Of a stretch of 64,000 nt of DNA, positions 16,187 through 20,925 are shown one piece after another. Every line of letters starts with the position of its first letter. Position 1 is the first letter of the stretch. The stretch is from Nibricoccus aquaticus (GTDB lineage Bacteria; Verrucomicrobiota; Verrucomicrobiia; Opitutales; Opitutaceae). The notes under the pieces are model-generated. The model made no database searches, was not told the DNA's origin, and was given only the letters and a program-made list of their open reading frames with translations. Where the stretch lies: NCBI RefSeq assembly GCF_002310495.1, contig NZ_CP023344.1, forward strand, positions 2,931,501 to 2,995,500, read 5' to 3'. A program made the position numbers and the translations under genes.

Positions 16187-17281
16187 ATGCCGAATAGCTT
16201 TGGAAAGAACTTCACGATCAGCACCTGGGGCGAGAGTCATGGCGCGGGGGTGGGCGTGGTGATCGATGGGTGTCCGCCGAATCTGCCGATCACGGCGGAT
16301 GAAATCCAAGTGGAGCTGGACCGGCGGCGTCCGGGGCAGAGTGACATCGTGACGCCGCGCAAGGAGGAGGATCGCGTGGAGATTATTTCAGGGATCTTCG
16401 AGGGCAAAACCACGGGAACGCCGATCGCGATGCTGGTGAGGAATGCCGATCACCGGTCGAGCGCGTACTCGGAGATGAAGGACAAGTTCCGGCCGTCGCA
16501 CGCGGATTTCACTTATCAATCGAAGTTCGGCATTCGCGATCATGCGGGTGGCGGGCGGAGCTCGGCGCGCGAGACGATCGGGCGTGTGGCGGCGGGGGCG
16601 ATCGCGAAGAAGATACTGGCGTCGGCCGGCGTGGAGATCCGGGCATTTGTCACGCGAATACAGGACATCGCGGCGCCGGAGAGTGCGTTGGAGAATTTCC
16701 CGGCGGCTGCGGACGTGGAGGCGACGGCGATTCGCTGTCCGCATGGCGAGACGGCGGCGAAGATGATCGAGCGGATCAAGGCGGTGCGCTCGGAAGGCGA
16801 TTCGGTGGGCGGCGTGATCCGGTGTCGCGTGCGGGGAATCCCGGCGGGATTGGGCGAGCCGGTGTTTGACCGGCTGGAGGCCGATCTGGGGAAGGCGATG
16901 CTGTCGCTGCCGGCGACGAAGGGATTTGAGGTGGGGAGCGGTTTTGGCGGGACGCTGCTGAAGGGATCGGAGCACAATGATTTGTTTGAAGTGCGGGACG
17001 GCAAGACGCGCACGGTGACGAATCGCTCGGGTGGGATTCAGGGAGGGATTAGCAATGGGGAGGAGATTTTCTTCAACGTGGCGTTCAAGCCGACGGCGAC
17101 GATTTTGCAGCTGCAGAAGACGGTCGATGTGCAGGGGAACGCGACGGAGTTGATGGGCAAGGGGCGTCACGATGCGTGTGTGTTGCCGCGGGCGGTGCCG
17201 ATCGTGGAAGCGATGGCGGCGCTGGTGCTGGTCGATCACTGGATGCGGCAGAATGCGCAGAACGGGACGTTTCGGTTTTGA
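16187..17281 (+). CDS. aroC: Chorismate synthase
   Basis: A 364-residue cytosolic enzyme that converts 5-enolpyruvylshikimate 3-phosphate to chorismate with reduced FMN, the last common step of the shikimate pathway. Family signatures are clear: [17 protein letters not shown] near the start, [27 protein letters not shown], and near the C-terminus the [18 protein letters not shown] segment. Length is normal. It lies alone between the secretin and the sigma factor gene; its product feeds PabB encoded 7 kb downstream, though the genes are not in one operon. Confidence 0.96.
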
Positions 17282-17550
17282 GATGACGTGGGCGGGAGGG
17301 GCAGCGCGGGCGGTGGTGAGGGGATTGCGATGGTGAGGTGAAACGCGAAGACGCAACGAGGCGAAGATCGAGCGCGAGGAGGCGGATAGTTCACCGCAGA
17401 GGCGCGGAGGACGCGGAGAAACGGAGCGGGCGGGGCGGAGTTTTGCAGGTGGGGAGGAGTGGCCGTAAAGAGGCGCAAAAAGACGCAAAGTGATGAGCGG
17501 AGTTTTCTTTGTTCGGTTCCTGCATCGGTGGCCAATAGTCATGTGAAGCC
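17282..17550. other. Repeat-bearing intergenic region before the sigma factor gene
   Basis: 269 bases without a gene. It contains three fragments of dispersed repeats: a CGCGAAGACGCAACGAGGCG unit at about 17344-17363, a CCGCAGAGGCGCGGAGGACG unit at about 17394-17413, and a GTAAAGAGGCGCAAAAAGAC unit at about 17465-17484. No promoter could be fixed by eye. Confidence 0.5.
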
Positions 17551-19116
17551 ATGATGGATGATGCGCAGTTGATCGGACGGTTTTTGGAGTCGAAGGACTC
17601 CGGGGCGTTTGGCGCGCTCGTGGAGCGGCATGTGGGGATGGTTTATCGGACGGCGCTGAGGTTGGTGGCGGGCGATGCGCATCGGGCGGAGGATGTGGCG
17701 CAGAGCGTGTTTACGTTGCTGGCGCGGAAGGCGGATTCGTTGCGCGGTTATGCGAGTATAGCGGGCTGGCTTTATGAAGCTACGCGGCGGATCGCGCGCG
17801 ATGTGCGGCGAAGCGAAGAGCGACGGAGGCGTCGCGAGAAAGGAGCGTTTGTTATGAGCGAATATTTGGATGATGGTGCGGGCGCGAAGGTGGGCGCCGG
17901 TGGCGATGGGGCGTCGGTGGATTGGGAGGCGGTGCGGCCGGTGCTGGATGAGGCGCTGGGGGAGTTGAGCGTGGCGGAGCGGGAAGCGGTGCTGCTGCGG
18001 TTTTTTGGCGGGAAGGGGTTTGGAGAGATCGGGGCGGCGCTCCGGTTGAGCGAGGATGCCGCGCGGATGCGGACGAGCCGGGCGTTGGAGAAATTGCGCG
18101 GGTTGCTGGAGCGGCGCGGCGTGAAATCGACGTCAGCAGCGCTCGGTGTGGCGCTGGCGGGCGATGCGGCGATGGGGGCTCCGGTGGGGCTGGCGGCGAT
18201 GGTTTCGCAGGGGGCGTTGGCGGGGGTGGCGTCGGGCGGTGCGGGTGTGGCGCTGGGCTTCGGCGCGGTGGGATTTATGAGTGTGATCAAAACGGTGGGA
18301 GTGGTGGCGGTCGCTGGAGTGGCGACCTTTTTTGCGGTTAAGGAAATCTCCGCGAAGCGCGATACGGAGGCAGTGCTAGCGGGCGTGAAGGCCGAATATG
18401 CAATGCTGTTGGGAAAAGCTGAAGAGGCTGAACGTGCGTTGAAACTGGCGGAGCAGGAGGCGGCAAGACGTGCGGAGGAAAAGGCAGCTGCCGCAGCGGC
18501 GTTTGCGAAAGCGGAGAAGGAAAAACCGAAGGAGGATCCGGTGGCGCTGGGCGATGCGTTGATGGCGAAACATCCAGAGGTGAAGACCGCGTTGATCGCG
18601 CAGTATCGAGCGGGCGTGGTGCTTAAGTATCTGCCTTTTTATCGGGAGCTGAAACTGACGGCAGAGCAGCGGGCGCAGTTTGAGGAGATTCAGCTCTCGA
18701 ATGAGATCCCCGGGATATCCTTGGATGATGGGCGGATAAGTCTGCGCATACCGCGGAAACTCAAAAGTGCGGAACGGAATCAAAAGCTGAAGGAGCTACT
18801 AGGAGATGAAGGCTATAAAGCGCTTGGTCAGTTTGAGCAGGAGGCCGGAGTGAGGGCGGAGGCGGAGAGGACCGCCGCGCTTTTATTCGACGGGGGCGCA
18901 TCGGTTACGCAGGAGCAAGGCAAGGCGTTGGCGAAGCTTTTTGGCAGGGAGAGGGGAGCGCCGGGCATGACTGCGACGCAGTATTGGGAGAAAATCCGTG
19001 CGGAGGCGTCGCGGTTTTTGTCTACGGAGCAGCTGTCGGTCCTGAGCGTCAAACAACTCCAAGCCGAGGCGGCATGGGCGAATCAACAGGCGGCGAAACG
19101 GAGTCTCAGAAAGTAA
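17551..19116 (+). CDS. ECF-type sigma factor with transmembrane anchor and C-terminal extracytoplasmic domain
   Basis: A 521-residue fusion. Residues about 10-90 form sigma region 2 (ALVERHVGMVYRTALRLVAG, AEDVAQSVFTLLARKA) and about 128-185 region 4 (ELSVAEREAVLLRFFGGKGF). Then follow a Gly/Ala-rich hydrophobic stretch with one transmembrane helix around 240-264, a Lys/Glu/Ala coiled coil at about 270-325, and a C-terminal domain to 521. Normal ECF factors end near residue 190. The topology places the C-terminal domain outside the cytoplasm, so the protein may sense a signal itself instead of relying on a separate anti-sigma factor; that is inference. The next gene starts 5 bases after the stop and shares the C-terminal domain. 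Confidence 0.85.
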   Translation: MMDDAQLIGRFLESKDSGAFGALVERHVGMVYRTALRLVAGDAHRAEDVAQSVFTLLARKADSLRGYASIAGWLYEATRRIARDVRRSEERRRRREKGAFVMSEYLDDGAGAKVGAGGDGASVDWEAVRPVLDEALGELSVAEREAVLLRFFGGKGFGEIGAALRLSEDAARMRTSRALEKLRGLLERRGVKSTSAALGVALAGDAAMGAPVGLAAMVSQGALAGVASGGAGVALGFGAVGFMSVIKTVGVVAVAGVATFFAVKEISAKRDTEAVLAGVKAEYAMLLGKAEEAERALKLAEQEAARRAEEKAAAAAAFAKAEKEKPKEDPVALGDALMAKHPEVKTALIAQYRAGVVLKYLPFYRELKLTAEQRAQFEEIQLSNEIPGISLDDGRISLRIPRKLKSAERNQKLKELLGDEGYKALGQFEQEAGVRAEAERTAALLFDGGASVTQEQGKALAKLFGRERGAPGMTATQYWEKIRAEASRFLSTEQLSVLSVKQLQAEAAWANQQAAKRSLRK

Positions 19117-19120
19117 GCGT

Positions 19121-20050
19121 ATGAACAACCGGTGGATGAAAGGCGTGCTGTGGATTTCGCTCTTGAGCTGGACGGCGGGCTCTGGGGCAGTGTGGACGTG
19201 GGCGAAAGCGGCGCGTGACAGGGCCGAGCAGGAGCGCGTGGTGTGTGAAGTACGTCTGCAGGAATTGAAAGCGCGCTTCCATGCGATTGAAAAACGCCGG
19301 AGCGGAGTCGAGAACGCGGAAACGAACGAACGTGCCAAGGCGGATAAAGCGAAAGCGGACGCGGAGAAAACGGCGCTCATGAAAGCACTGGCTCCTAAGC
19401 AATCGGAGCAGCGACTGGATAAAGATCCGCAGTTGCAGCTTTTGAAATTGAAGGCGTTACGCGCAGATTTGGTCGTGAAGTACGGAGTGTTTTTGCGGGA
19501 GAAAAAGCTGACGTCAGAACAGATCGAGCGGTTGAGTGCAGCGTGGTCGGATTATGAGGCTGCCAAGCTGGATATCGCGGCGATCCGCCGGGATCATAAA
19601 CTCGGATACGACGATCCGGCGGTGGCGGTTCAGCGTAAAGAGGCGCAGGCGGCGCTGGCTGTGGCTGAGAAGGCGGTGCTTGGCGAAGAGGGATTTAAGG
19701 ACTTCGACCAGTTCAGGCGGATGCAGCCGATGCGGGAACTGGTGCTGGGCTATGTGGGTAAAGCGGCGTTGCTAGGGGTGCCAGCGACTGAGGAGCAGGT
19801 GACACGGGTGACAGAGGTGCTGGCGGCGATGAACACGAATTTCCGAAACGGAGGGCAGGTGCAATTTGGGGAGATGGACTGGGATGCCGGCTGGGCGAAA
19901 GCGCGGGAGTTTATGTCGGCGGAACAATATGAGTTGCTCGTGGCCGAGACAAACGAGCGGCGCACGATGCACGACGTGATGGATGCCACGGTCTTTATCC
20001 ATGAGGAGCTGGCCAAGGAAGATGCGACCAAAGCGGCTGCGACGCGATGA
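19121..20050 (+). CDS. Membrane-anchored coiled-coil protein paralogous to the sigma factor C-terminal domain
   Basis: A 309-residue protein: an N-terminal membrane anchor at about residues 8-28, a charged coiled coil at about 30-95, then a domain that aligns with the C-terminal domain of the upstream sigma factor. Matching landmarks in the same order are KYGVFLREKKLTSEQ against KYLPFYRELKLTAEQ, VLGEEGFKDFDQF against LLGDEGYKALGQF, and FMSAEQYELLV against FLSTEQLSVLS. It lies 4 bases after the sigma gene and must be co-transcribed. It is probably a partner or competitor in the same signalling unit. No named family is recognised. Confidence 0.75.
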   Translation: MNNRWMKGVLWISLLSWTAGSGAVWTWAKAARDRAEQERVVCEVRLQELKARFHAIEKRRSGVENAETNERAKADKAKADAEKTALMKALAPKQSEQRLDKDPQLQLLKLKALRADLVVKYGVFLREKKLTSEQIERLSAAWSDYEAAKLDIAAIRRDHKLGYDDPAVAVQRKEAQAALAVAEKAVLGEEGFKDFDQFRRMQPMRELVLGYVGKAALLGVPATEEQVTRVTEVLAAMNTNFRNGGQVQFGEMDWDAGWAKAREFMSAEQYELLVAETNERRTMHDVMDATVFIHEELAKEDATKAAATR

Positions 20051-20121: not shown

Positions 20122-20925
20122 ATGGGTTTTGTGCGCGGCATGAATGATTCAGCGAAACCTCTTGTTTATGTGATCCTCGGTGCCTCTGGGTCCGGGCGGC
20201 GTGAGGTGCTGGCGGATTTGATCACGGATGGGCTCGATTCGGATGAGCAGGCGGTCGTGTTGCTCGCGGAGGGCGAGGCGGCGGATGAGCGCGATGCGAA
20301 GCTGGGGAGAATTGTGCGCTGGCGGTTTCTCGGGGCGGAAGCGGGGATCGAGGTGCCGGAGGGCGCGATCGAGGGGGCGACGCATGTGTTTTTCGTGACG
20401 GATGGGCGGGGGAATCCGGTGGATCAGCTGGAGGCGTTCAAGCCTTGGGTGGAGTCGAGCGGCGCGGAGATGGCCCGGGTGTTCACCGTCGTGGATTGTC
20501 AGCTCGCGGAAAAAAATAAGGCGCTGATCGCGTGGTATGAGGCGTGCATCCACTTTTCGGATGTGGTGCTGCTGACGAAGCGCGAGGGCGTGGCGAACAA
20601 GTGGATGTCGGATTTCCAGACGTTGTTTAAGGATAAGTTTTATCCGGCGCTTTTTGAGATGGTGAAGGGCGGACGGGTGAAGAATCCGCCGTTGCTGCTG
20701 GAGCCCGAGGCGCGGCGGATGTCGCATCTGTTCGATGAGCCGGATTGGGTCGTCGATGGCGTCGATGCCGAGGAGATGATCGAGACGGGCGAGGACGATG
20801 CTGAGGAAGGCACGGCGCTGAACGAAGAGGTCGAGGTCACACAGGCGGTCGATCCGTACATGGAGCGGCGGCTGGGTGGGCGGCGCGTGATCGAGATCCC
20901 GGACGTGGCGAAGTTTCTGGGTTGA
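20122..20925 (+). CDS. P-loop NTPase, possibly CobW/G3E-like, with acidic C-terminus
   Basis: A protein of 267 residues (261 if the second ATG at 20140 is used). It has a P-loop-like GASGSGRREV near the N-terminus, an alternating beta/alpha core, and a segment VVDCQLAEKNKALIAWYEAC...DVVLLTKRE that recalls the end of the CobW/HypB/UreG G domain, with TKRE in place of the usual NKxD specificity motif. The last 60 residues are strongly acidic (EDDAEEGTALNEEVEV). CobW-type proteins insert metals; a metal-handling role here is a weak inference. It stands alone after the sigma factor pair. Confidence 0.5.
   Translation: MGFVRGMNDSAKPLVYVILGASGSGRREVLADLITDGLDSDEQAVVLLAEGEAADERDAKLGRIVRWRFLGAEAGIEVPEGAIEGATHVFFVTDGRGNPVDQLEAFKPWVESSGAEMARVFTVVDCQLAEKNKALIAWYEACIHFSDVVLLTKREGVANKWMSDFQTLFKDKFYPALFEMVKGGRVKNPPLLLEPEARRMSHLFDEPDWVVDGVDAEEMIETGEDDAEEGTALNEEVEVTQAVDPYMERRLGGRRVIEIPDVAKFLG

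Follow-up and report, generated by a model that had tools for sequence, protein, structure and literature searches.

Locus and gene pair

We analyzed two adjoining genes of Nibricoccus aquaticus (Opitutaceae, Verrucomicrobiota) in a stretch of 64,000 nucleotides (NCBI RefSeq assembly GCF_002310495.1, contig NZ_CP023344.1, positions 2,931,501 to 2,995,500 of the forward strand), which is called the window here and to which the coordinates in Table 1 refer. The first gene encodes a membrane-anchored sigma factor of the extracytoplasmic function (ECF) type ending in a helical domain (domain A), and the second, whose ATG follows the sigma stop codon after 4 bases, encodes a membrane-anchored protein (the partner) with a domain (domain B) homologous to domain A. 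Both open reading frames (ORFs) were found where the original prediction, made from the letters alone, had placed them. The sigma protein exceeds the curated cut-offs for sigma-70 regions 2 and 4, which identifies it as an ECF sigma factor, and also the own cut-off of TIGR02937 (66.9 versus 42.9 bits). Its C-terminal domain matches no Pfam or NCBIfam model at the thresholds used.

Homology and predicted fold of domains A and B

Domains A and B are homologous. The landmarks previously noted as shared in the same order were all located, at residues 359 (KYLPFYRELKLTAEQ), 417 (LGDEGY) and 489 (FLSTEQ) of the sigma protein and at residues 120 (KYGVFLREKKLTSEQ), 187 (LGEEGF) and 264 (FMSAEQ) of the partner. 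BLASTP aligned the sigma protein with the partner over 182 columns at 28% identity (E = 4e-6). Profile-profile comparison of A (16 sequences) with B (19 sequences), the check proposed together with the original prediction, gave a probability of 99.9% over 168 columns (E = 1.1e-35 for the single comparison), versus a probability of at most 0.6% for column-shuffled profile controls (n = 30).

AlphaFold2 models of domain A (mean predicted local distance difference test score, pLDDT, 90.2; predicted template modelling score, pTM, 0.77) and of the whole partner (mean pLDDT 90.8; pTM 0.66) were both confident and mostly helical, with the partner modeled as an unbroken helix of residues 5-89 followed by domain B. 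Between its LTAEQ and LLGDEG motifs, the window copy of domain A forms a beta hairpin, where the partner is helical. This stretch has a median length of 44 residues in paired A domains versus 51-52 in B, lone-sigma and stand-alone copies, with lengths that overlap between the classes. PDB searches with the models of domain A and of the entire partner gave best Foldseek E values of 0.42 and 1.0, respectively, and best VIA-align 2 Z scores of 6.3 (76 residues, 2.8 Å) and 7.4 (86 residues, 3.1 Å); these scores lie in the range common for helical models, and no fold was assigned. A sequence search of solved structures with a 54-row profile gave as its best match a phage head protein (E = 0.033, 33 residues), which was read as chance and discarded.

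The LTXXQ/Spy/CpxP family (PF07813) likewise consists of helical periplasmic domains with LTxxQ-like motifs at helix starts. A and B could be diverged chaperones or metal sensors of this kind, for which CnrX/CnrY/CnrH and CpxP-based sensing provide a model. LTXXQ-like motifs are found where helices start in A and B, and PF07813 was the commonest weak Pfam match (10 of 54 members, best E = 7.5e-4), accompanied by the Spy model in four of the 54 (best E = 1.4e-3). These matches are confined to some relatives, however; neither window protein matches PF07813 at an E limit of 1, or the Spy model, and unrelated models score as well or better (SAM_SMF in 6 of 54 members, best E = 1.8e-4; a trehalase model, 1.7e-4). 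No Spy/CpxP structure stood among the PDB matches listed for domain A and the whole partner (50 per search), though the domains may still have such a fold. Descent from this family is unlikely, and the weak LTXXQ and Spy matches in relatives are treated as a lead only.

Table 1. Features of the sigma/partner locus, with coordinates in the window
Feature	Coordinates	Strand	Basis
Upstream half of promoter-like element, TTTGTTCGGTTC (clade consensus TTTGTKCGGTTT)	17508..17519	+	clade upstream comparison
Downstream half, GGTGGCCAATA, -10-like by position	17527..17537	+	column composition, less conserved; putative role
ECF sigma factor, membrane-anchored, 521 aa	17551..19116	+	ORF; Pfam/NCBIfam matches
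Sigma-70 region 2, residues 23-91	17617..17823	+	PF04542, 35.4 bits versus cut-off 24
Sigma-70 region 4, residues 132-182	17944..18096	+	PF08281, 36 bits versus cut-off 25.7
Likeliest transmembrane segment of sigma protein, residues 245-263	18283..18339	+	Kyte-Doolittle mean 2.14, top of several
Ala/Glu/Lys-rich coil-like linker of sigma protein, residues 264-330	18340..18540	+	sequence; putative coiled coil
Domain A, residues 338-503, all-helical plus beta hairpin	18562..19059	+	profile comparison; AlphaFold2
4-base spacer, sigma stop to partner ATG	19117..19120	+	sequence
Membrane-anchored partner, 309 aa	19121..20050	+	ORF; AlphaFold2 model
N-terminal membrane anchor of partner, residues 9-27	19145..19201	+	hydropathy, weak for family; within model helix 5-89
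Coil helix of partner, residues 28-89	19202..19387	+	continuous helix in AlphaFold2 model
Domain B (homologue of domain A), residues 99-278	19415..19954	+	BLASTP; profile-profile; AlphaFold2

Recurrence of the pair among relatives

A genome collection was scanned with an alignment of the sigma factor, and the best 80 of 293 matches (79 distinct) were kept. These 79 loci were ranked by likeness to the whole window sigma protein, so that domain-bearing sigma factors were favored among them, while the partner played no role in the choice; nearly all were labeled Opitutaceae or other Verrucomicrobiota and most came from metagenome-assembled genomes (MAGs). The main census covered these sigma-found loci (L103-L181) and sigma genes with more than 1.1 kb downstream, and a larger census added 20 stretches picked for domain or partner matches (L083-L102) and loci of the N. 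aquaticus genome itself. Excluded were sigma matches below 100 bits, frames leaving the 3′ end, repeats of the same sigma sequence, and genes with downstream sequence of at most 1.2 kb (larger census) or 1.1 kb (main census).

A partner bearing the domain stood directly after 17 of the 36 domain-bearing sigma genes versus 1 of the 50 others in the main census (Fisher's test, p = 2.9e-7), and after 25/47 versus 1/49 in the larger one (p = 3.6e-9), both values ignoring relatedness. The sole exception (L162:3944-5552) is a sigma gene that a frame break seems to have parted from its domain. Gaps between the genes, with the partner start taken as the plausible codon closest to the sigma stop, were between -4 and +10 nt in 26 of 27 pairs, 15 of which overlap by 4 nt. 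The sigma/partner pair is a recurrent unit, and the survey of other Opitutaceae genomes that had been proposed at the outset confirmed its presence there.

Variants of the arrangement were also seen. L092:3805-5624, in the larger set, is another sigma gene whose domain seems to have been severed from it through a broken reading frame. Three sigma/partner pairs and another single domain protein lie within 20 kb on a single contig from an Opitutaceae MAG (L083:4543-11074 and 17205-19854; L084). At L089:4208-6030 (minus strand) and L100:4051-5843 (plus strand), two anchored domain proteins lacking a sigma part are encoded by adjoining, overlapping genes, and no clade sigma gene was detected in these two stretches. 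Anchored proteins that carry this domain are also encoded on their own, as stand-alone products, in the N. aquaticus genome (L212:5443-6423) and in L213-L218, so the domain has a use apart from sigma factors. In six of seven stretches from the same family the stand-alone gene has a topoisomerase gene on one side and a class II aldolase gene on the other (neighbors checked with Pfam in one stretch), with genes intervening in L215; in N. aquaticus it adjoins the class II aldolase gene.

Other C-terminal domains in the same sigma clade

Among 55 clade sigma factors that do not carry the window domain, Pfam matches to TonB_C were found in 16 and to SLBB, carboxypeptidase-regulatory and immunoglobulin-like domains in one each. 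The TonB_C proteins comprise L008:1003-2334 of the N. aquaticus genome, in which TonB_C occupies residues 361-437, beyond the sigma part, and the products of 15 further genes in L119-L171 (cluster 2). An anchored ORF starting at -40 to +30 nt followed 21 of the 54 such sigma genes with more than 900 bases downstream.

For comparison of each sigma protein with its downstream product, the 60 residues that follow the membrane segment were trimmed so that coils would not match, and length limits were passed by 24 of 29 loci with other domains (class N) and all 25 loci of the window family (class P). The downstream product was homologous to the C-terminal part of its own sigma protein in 11/24 class-N loci versus 68/552 cross-locus comparisons, and in 8 of these 11 loci the own partner was the best match; in four of them (L115, L116, L129, L155) the match spans only 60-88 residues. 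Clustering yielded six BLAST families with a domain type common to sigma protein and partner at the same locus. A probable relationship between clusters 3 and 4 (hhalign, 84%) led to their merger, which leaves five families, the others showing no relationship by hhalign; of the four families beyond that of the window, two (clusters 5 and 6) are known from one locus each. The types of sigma protein and partner agreed in 36/49 loci overall. As matching in the whole set is driven by the window family, a separate test was made without that family and gave 11/24 agreements, with a permuted maximum of 10 (0 of 20,000 permutations reached the observed value). Eleven loci of cluster 2, to which the TonB_C sigma factor L008 belongs, have an anchored partner from another family, one that other sigma factors carry, and type matching is therefore a strong tendency and not a law. 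The adjacent paralogous domain, described in the original prediction as its new point, does adjoin the sigma gene, but its extent had been understated, since the same pairing recurs for several unrelated domains.

A further example, at L083:2409-4586 (minus strand), is a sigma gene with a different large C-terminal part. The anchored ORF that overlaps its downstream end shares 35% identity with this part over 338 columns, and the two are divergent from the array of domain-A pairs on that stretch.

Natural fusion and shared history

In a second copy in the N. aquaticus genome, sigma factor, A and B form a single ORF of 733 aa that is without the anchor and coil of the partner. In a tree of 94 domains (one of 95 was omitted as too short), one half of the fusion fell within the larger A group and the other within the larger B group; these groups were moderately supported, in a bootstrap that had not settled. 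Labels changed along the tree 4 times for A and 2 times for B, versus about 24 for shuffled labels, and 7 times for lone-sigma and 2 times for stand-alone domains. Because A and B are each clustered, they are old paralogues inherited together rather than recent tandem copies. Distances within the set of A domains correlated with those within the set of B domains (Mantel r = 0.69; 27 pairs including the fusion; 0 of 5000 permutations as high, permuted maximum 0.36), whereas the correlation of A with its own sigma part was just 0.29, and the partial correlation of A and B given the sigma part was 0.67. This pattern fits a module of A and B that has evolved together.

Membrane topology

The membrane anchoring of the sigma protein that had been predicted was upheld by two hydropathy scales, both of which favored residues 245-263; on the second scale the best segment scored 2.26 versus 3.59 for the next (lower is more hydrophobic). 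After the sigma part, the best segment scored at most 2 in 54 of 112 clade members and a second segment did so in 2 of 112. Further membrane passes in the window sigma protein are unlikely on these values. In 25 of 27 partners, 2-14 mostly basic residues precede a single anchor identified by hydropathy, which points to an N terminus inside and a C terminus outside; the window partner has 8 residues ahead of its segment, which at 3.6 is the second weakest of the 27 (range -2.3 to 5.3, lower being more hydrophobic). TonB_C is a periplasmic domain, and a periplasmic position of A and B agrees with its presence in the sister sigma proteins. Hydropathy, partner N termini and the TonB_C sisters together strongly suggest that domains A and B are periplasmic, so that the extracytoplasmic location originally predicted for the C-terminal domain is the most likely one; no cytoplasmic placement was found.

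A gene for a membrane-bound product immediately after an ECF sigma gene occupies the usual place of an anti-sigma gene, and the partner might on that ground be taken for a classical anti-sigma factor. The 2-14 residues before the anchor leave no room for a cytoplasmic anti-sigma domain, however, and the partner has no Pfam or NCBIfam match at the thresholds used; an anti-sigma (FecR-like) Pfam match was found in neither window protein. An anti-sigma role, rejected because of this very short cytoplasmic end, is scarcely credible.

Upstream promoter-like element

At least 10 of the 12 bases of the consensus TTTGTKCGGTTT were present within 100 bp before the start of 94/119 clade sigma genes (45 exact), as compared with 1.2% of 2380 base-shuffled upstream stretches. 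The consensus is followed by a G/C-rich stretch and TA and lies a median of 44 nt ahead of the sigma start. The core was absent from the 150 nt before partner genes (0/27), as expected for one operon. The natural reading of the element is an autoregulated ECF promoter. In the N. aquaticus genome the exact core lies 42-45 nt before three of six clade sigma genes, those for the window sigma factor, the fusion and the TonB_C sigma factor L008; cross-talk among these paralogues, which is directly testable because they share the core, is predicted. The element was seen whatever C-terminal domain the sigma factor has (window; L004, L008, L083-L181).

Reasons for caution about the promoter reading are that the other three clade sigma genes of this genome (L009-L011) are without the exact core, L011 having a variant and L009 standing outside the upstream set, and that, genome-wide, the exact core TTGTKCGRTT has 20 copies and its reversed control 22; the element could instead be an operator or an RNA feature. 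None of the remaining 17 genomic matches to the core was tied to a clear gene, and many run through long open frames. A gapped pattern of the two halves gave one match and one control match and was too strict, missing the copy in the window itself. A regulon beyond the sigma operons is not claimed.

Proposed mechanism and alternatives

The homology, gene order, natural fusion, correlated divergence and common upstream element are established by computation; binding of A to B, sensing of a signal and self-regulation of the operon are inferred. The gene pair is probably a sigma-factor co-component cassette, in which A and B constitute a periplasmic sensor that controls a membrane-held sigma factor. 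The transmembrane helix of the sigma protein would keep the ECF sigma factor on the cytoplasmic surface of the membrane, with domain A in the periplasm, and the partner, translated directly after it, would be anchored by its own N-terminal helix so as to present domain B. A and B, aided by the adjoining coils, would most likely associate in the periplasm as a heterotypic complex; an envelope signal received there would cross via the membrane helix of the sigma protein. The output could be either a sigma factor freed by regulated proteolysis, as for IutY, or a switch of the still-tethered sigma factor, as for ToxR and VtrA, and the active sigma factor would probably turn on its own operon through the conserved element upstream. 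The original interpretation, a membrane signaling unit in which the sigma factor senses through its own extracytoplasmic domain and a paralogous partner modulates it, is partly supported.

Several results weigh against such a cassette. Among the sigma-found loci, 19/36 domain-bearing sigma factors are without such a partner, which is therefore not required in every member, and none of 21 lone domain-bearing sigma genes is followed by an anchored gene at -40 to +30 nt, which argues that the domain can work alone. The fusion was seen in 1 of 250 genomes of the family (query, the C-terminal 411 residues; at most 7 candidates scored per genome). The Mantel result speaks for a common history no less than for contact, and residue covariation calls for more than the 27 pairs. 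The own partner was the top BLAST match for just 4/20 sigma proteins of the window family, and at class-P loci an E value of 1e-3 was reached by 14/25 own pairs and 288/600 cross-locus pairs. Finally, stretches at residues 200-246 of the window sigma protein are moderately hydrophobic (Kyte-Doolittle up to 1.6), and with a second pass through the membrane domain A would lie inside, although its paralogue in the partner argues otherwise.

The partnerless sigma factors, together with the stand-alone anchored proteins that carry the domain in the family and beyond, would also suit a domain that is a mere anchor or scaffold, with a neighbor that is a hitch-hiking duplicate of unrelated envelope role and a sigma factor controlled by transcription alone. 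This explanation is quite improbable, given that the partner is nearly absent beside domain-less sigma factors, that the genes are tightly spaced, that A and B are found fused, that their divergence is correlated and that the pairing recurs with unrelated domains.

A more serious competitor, though still rather unlikely, is a partner that acts as protector or antagonist, capping domain A and blocking a site-1 protease until the signal removes it and the sigma factor is cut free. RseB protects RseA from site-1 protease in this manner. Gene order and correlated divergence fit a protector equally well, and the genome encodes two M50 (site-2-type) proteases; these do not discriminate, however, since M50 proteases were found in 14/14 control genomes. 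IutY offers a precedent in which a sigma factor fused to its own regulator is freed by Prc and RseP (PMC5411451). In the fusion protein, by contrast, B would be unable to leave A.

Returning to the cassette, its recurrence with other domains raises the tentative possibility, somewhat short of even, of a distinct class of signaling systems in Verrucomicrobiota. In this class, membrane-held ECF sigma factors with interchangeable periplasmic domains would each have an anchored paralogue encoded directly downstream, the homotypic pair of domains, rather than a histidine kinase or anti-sigma factor, would be the sensor, and a swap of the domain pair would re-aim a constant sigma factor and promoter. 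If so, it would be a sigma-factor version of co-component signaling, beyond the enteric bacteria in which that idea arose, with a simple rule, that a partner tends to share the kind of domain of its sigma factor. It would offer a modular route by which envelope sensors come to drive one promoter type, and testable partners for membrane sigma factors in a widespread, poorly studied phylum, with the one-protein fusion as a natural control.

Relation to known systems

The co-component systems VtrA/VtrC and ToxR/ToxS, as presented in excerpts of Kinch et al. (2022; PMC9214523), likewise combine a membrane-tethered transcription protein that has a periplasmic domain with an overlapping or abutting gene for an anchored periplasmic partner, and likewise change quickly in sequence. 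The same gene layout is found here (26 of the 27 pairs within -4 to +10 nt), with anchors assigned by hydropathy and a probable periplasmic side. The output differs, being an ECF sigma factor (sigma-70 regions 2 and 4) here and a winged-helix (CadC-like) DNA-binding domain there, and so do the sensory domains, which are helical and mutually homologous here, whereas VtrC-like partners are described in those excerpts as lipocalin-like beta barrels (PMC9214523). IutY of Pseudomonas putida (ECF243) is, according to PMC5411451 and PMC8999054, likewise a single polypeptide of cytoplasmic ECF sigma factor, membrane segment and periplasmic regulatory part; it has a cell-surface-signaling anti-sigma domain and answers a siderophore, in contrast to the paralogous partner next door here. 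ECF48, ECF52 and ECF53 of Actinobacteria, e.g., SCO4117, likewise have C-terminal membrane helices and further domains; these include zinc-finger and other outside domains, and the excerpts of PMC8999054 describe no paralogous partner. Pfam gave no zinc-finger match in the extension of the window sigma protein.

In literature covered in part, as titles and abstract openings, no account was found of sigma factors with paralogous anchored partners, of which an earlier mention is possible, nor anything on co-component signaling with ECF sigma factors or on ECF sigma factors of Opitutaceae. There is a fair chance that this is the first view of a distinct class.

Of the genes around the pair, the next one after the partner (20122-20925) encodes a product with no Pfam match, and a chorismate synthase gene lies upstream of the sigma gene.

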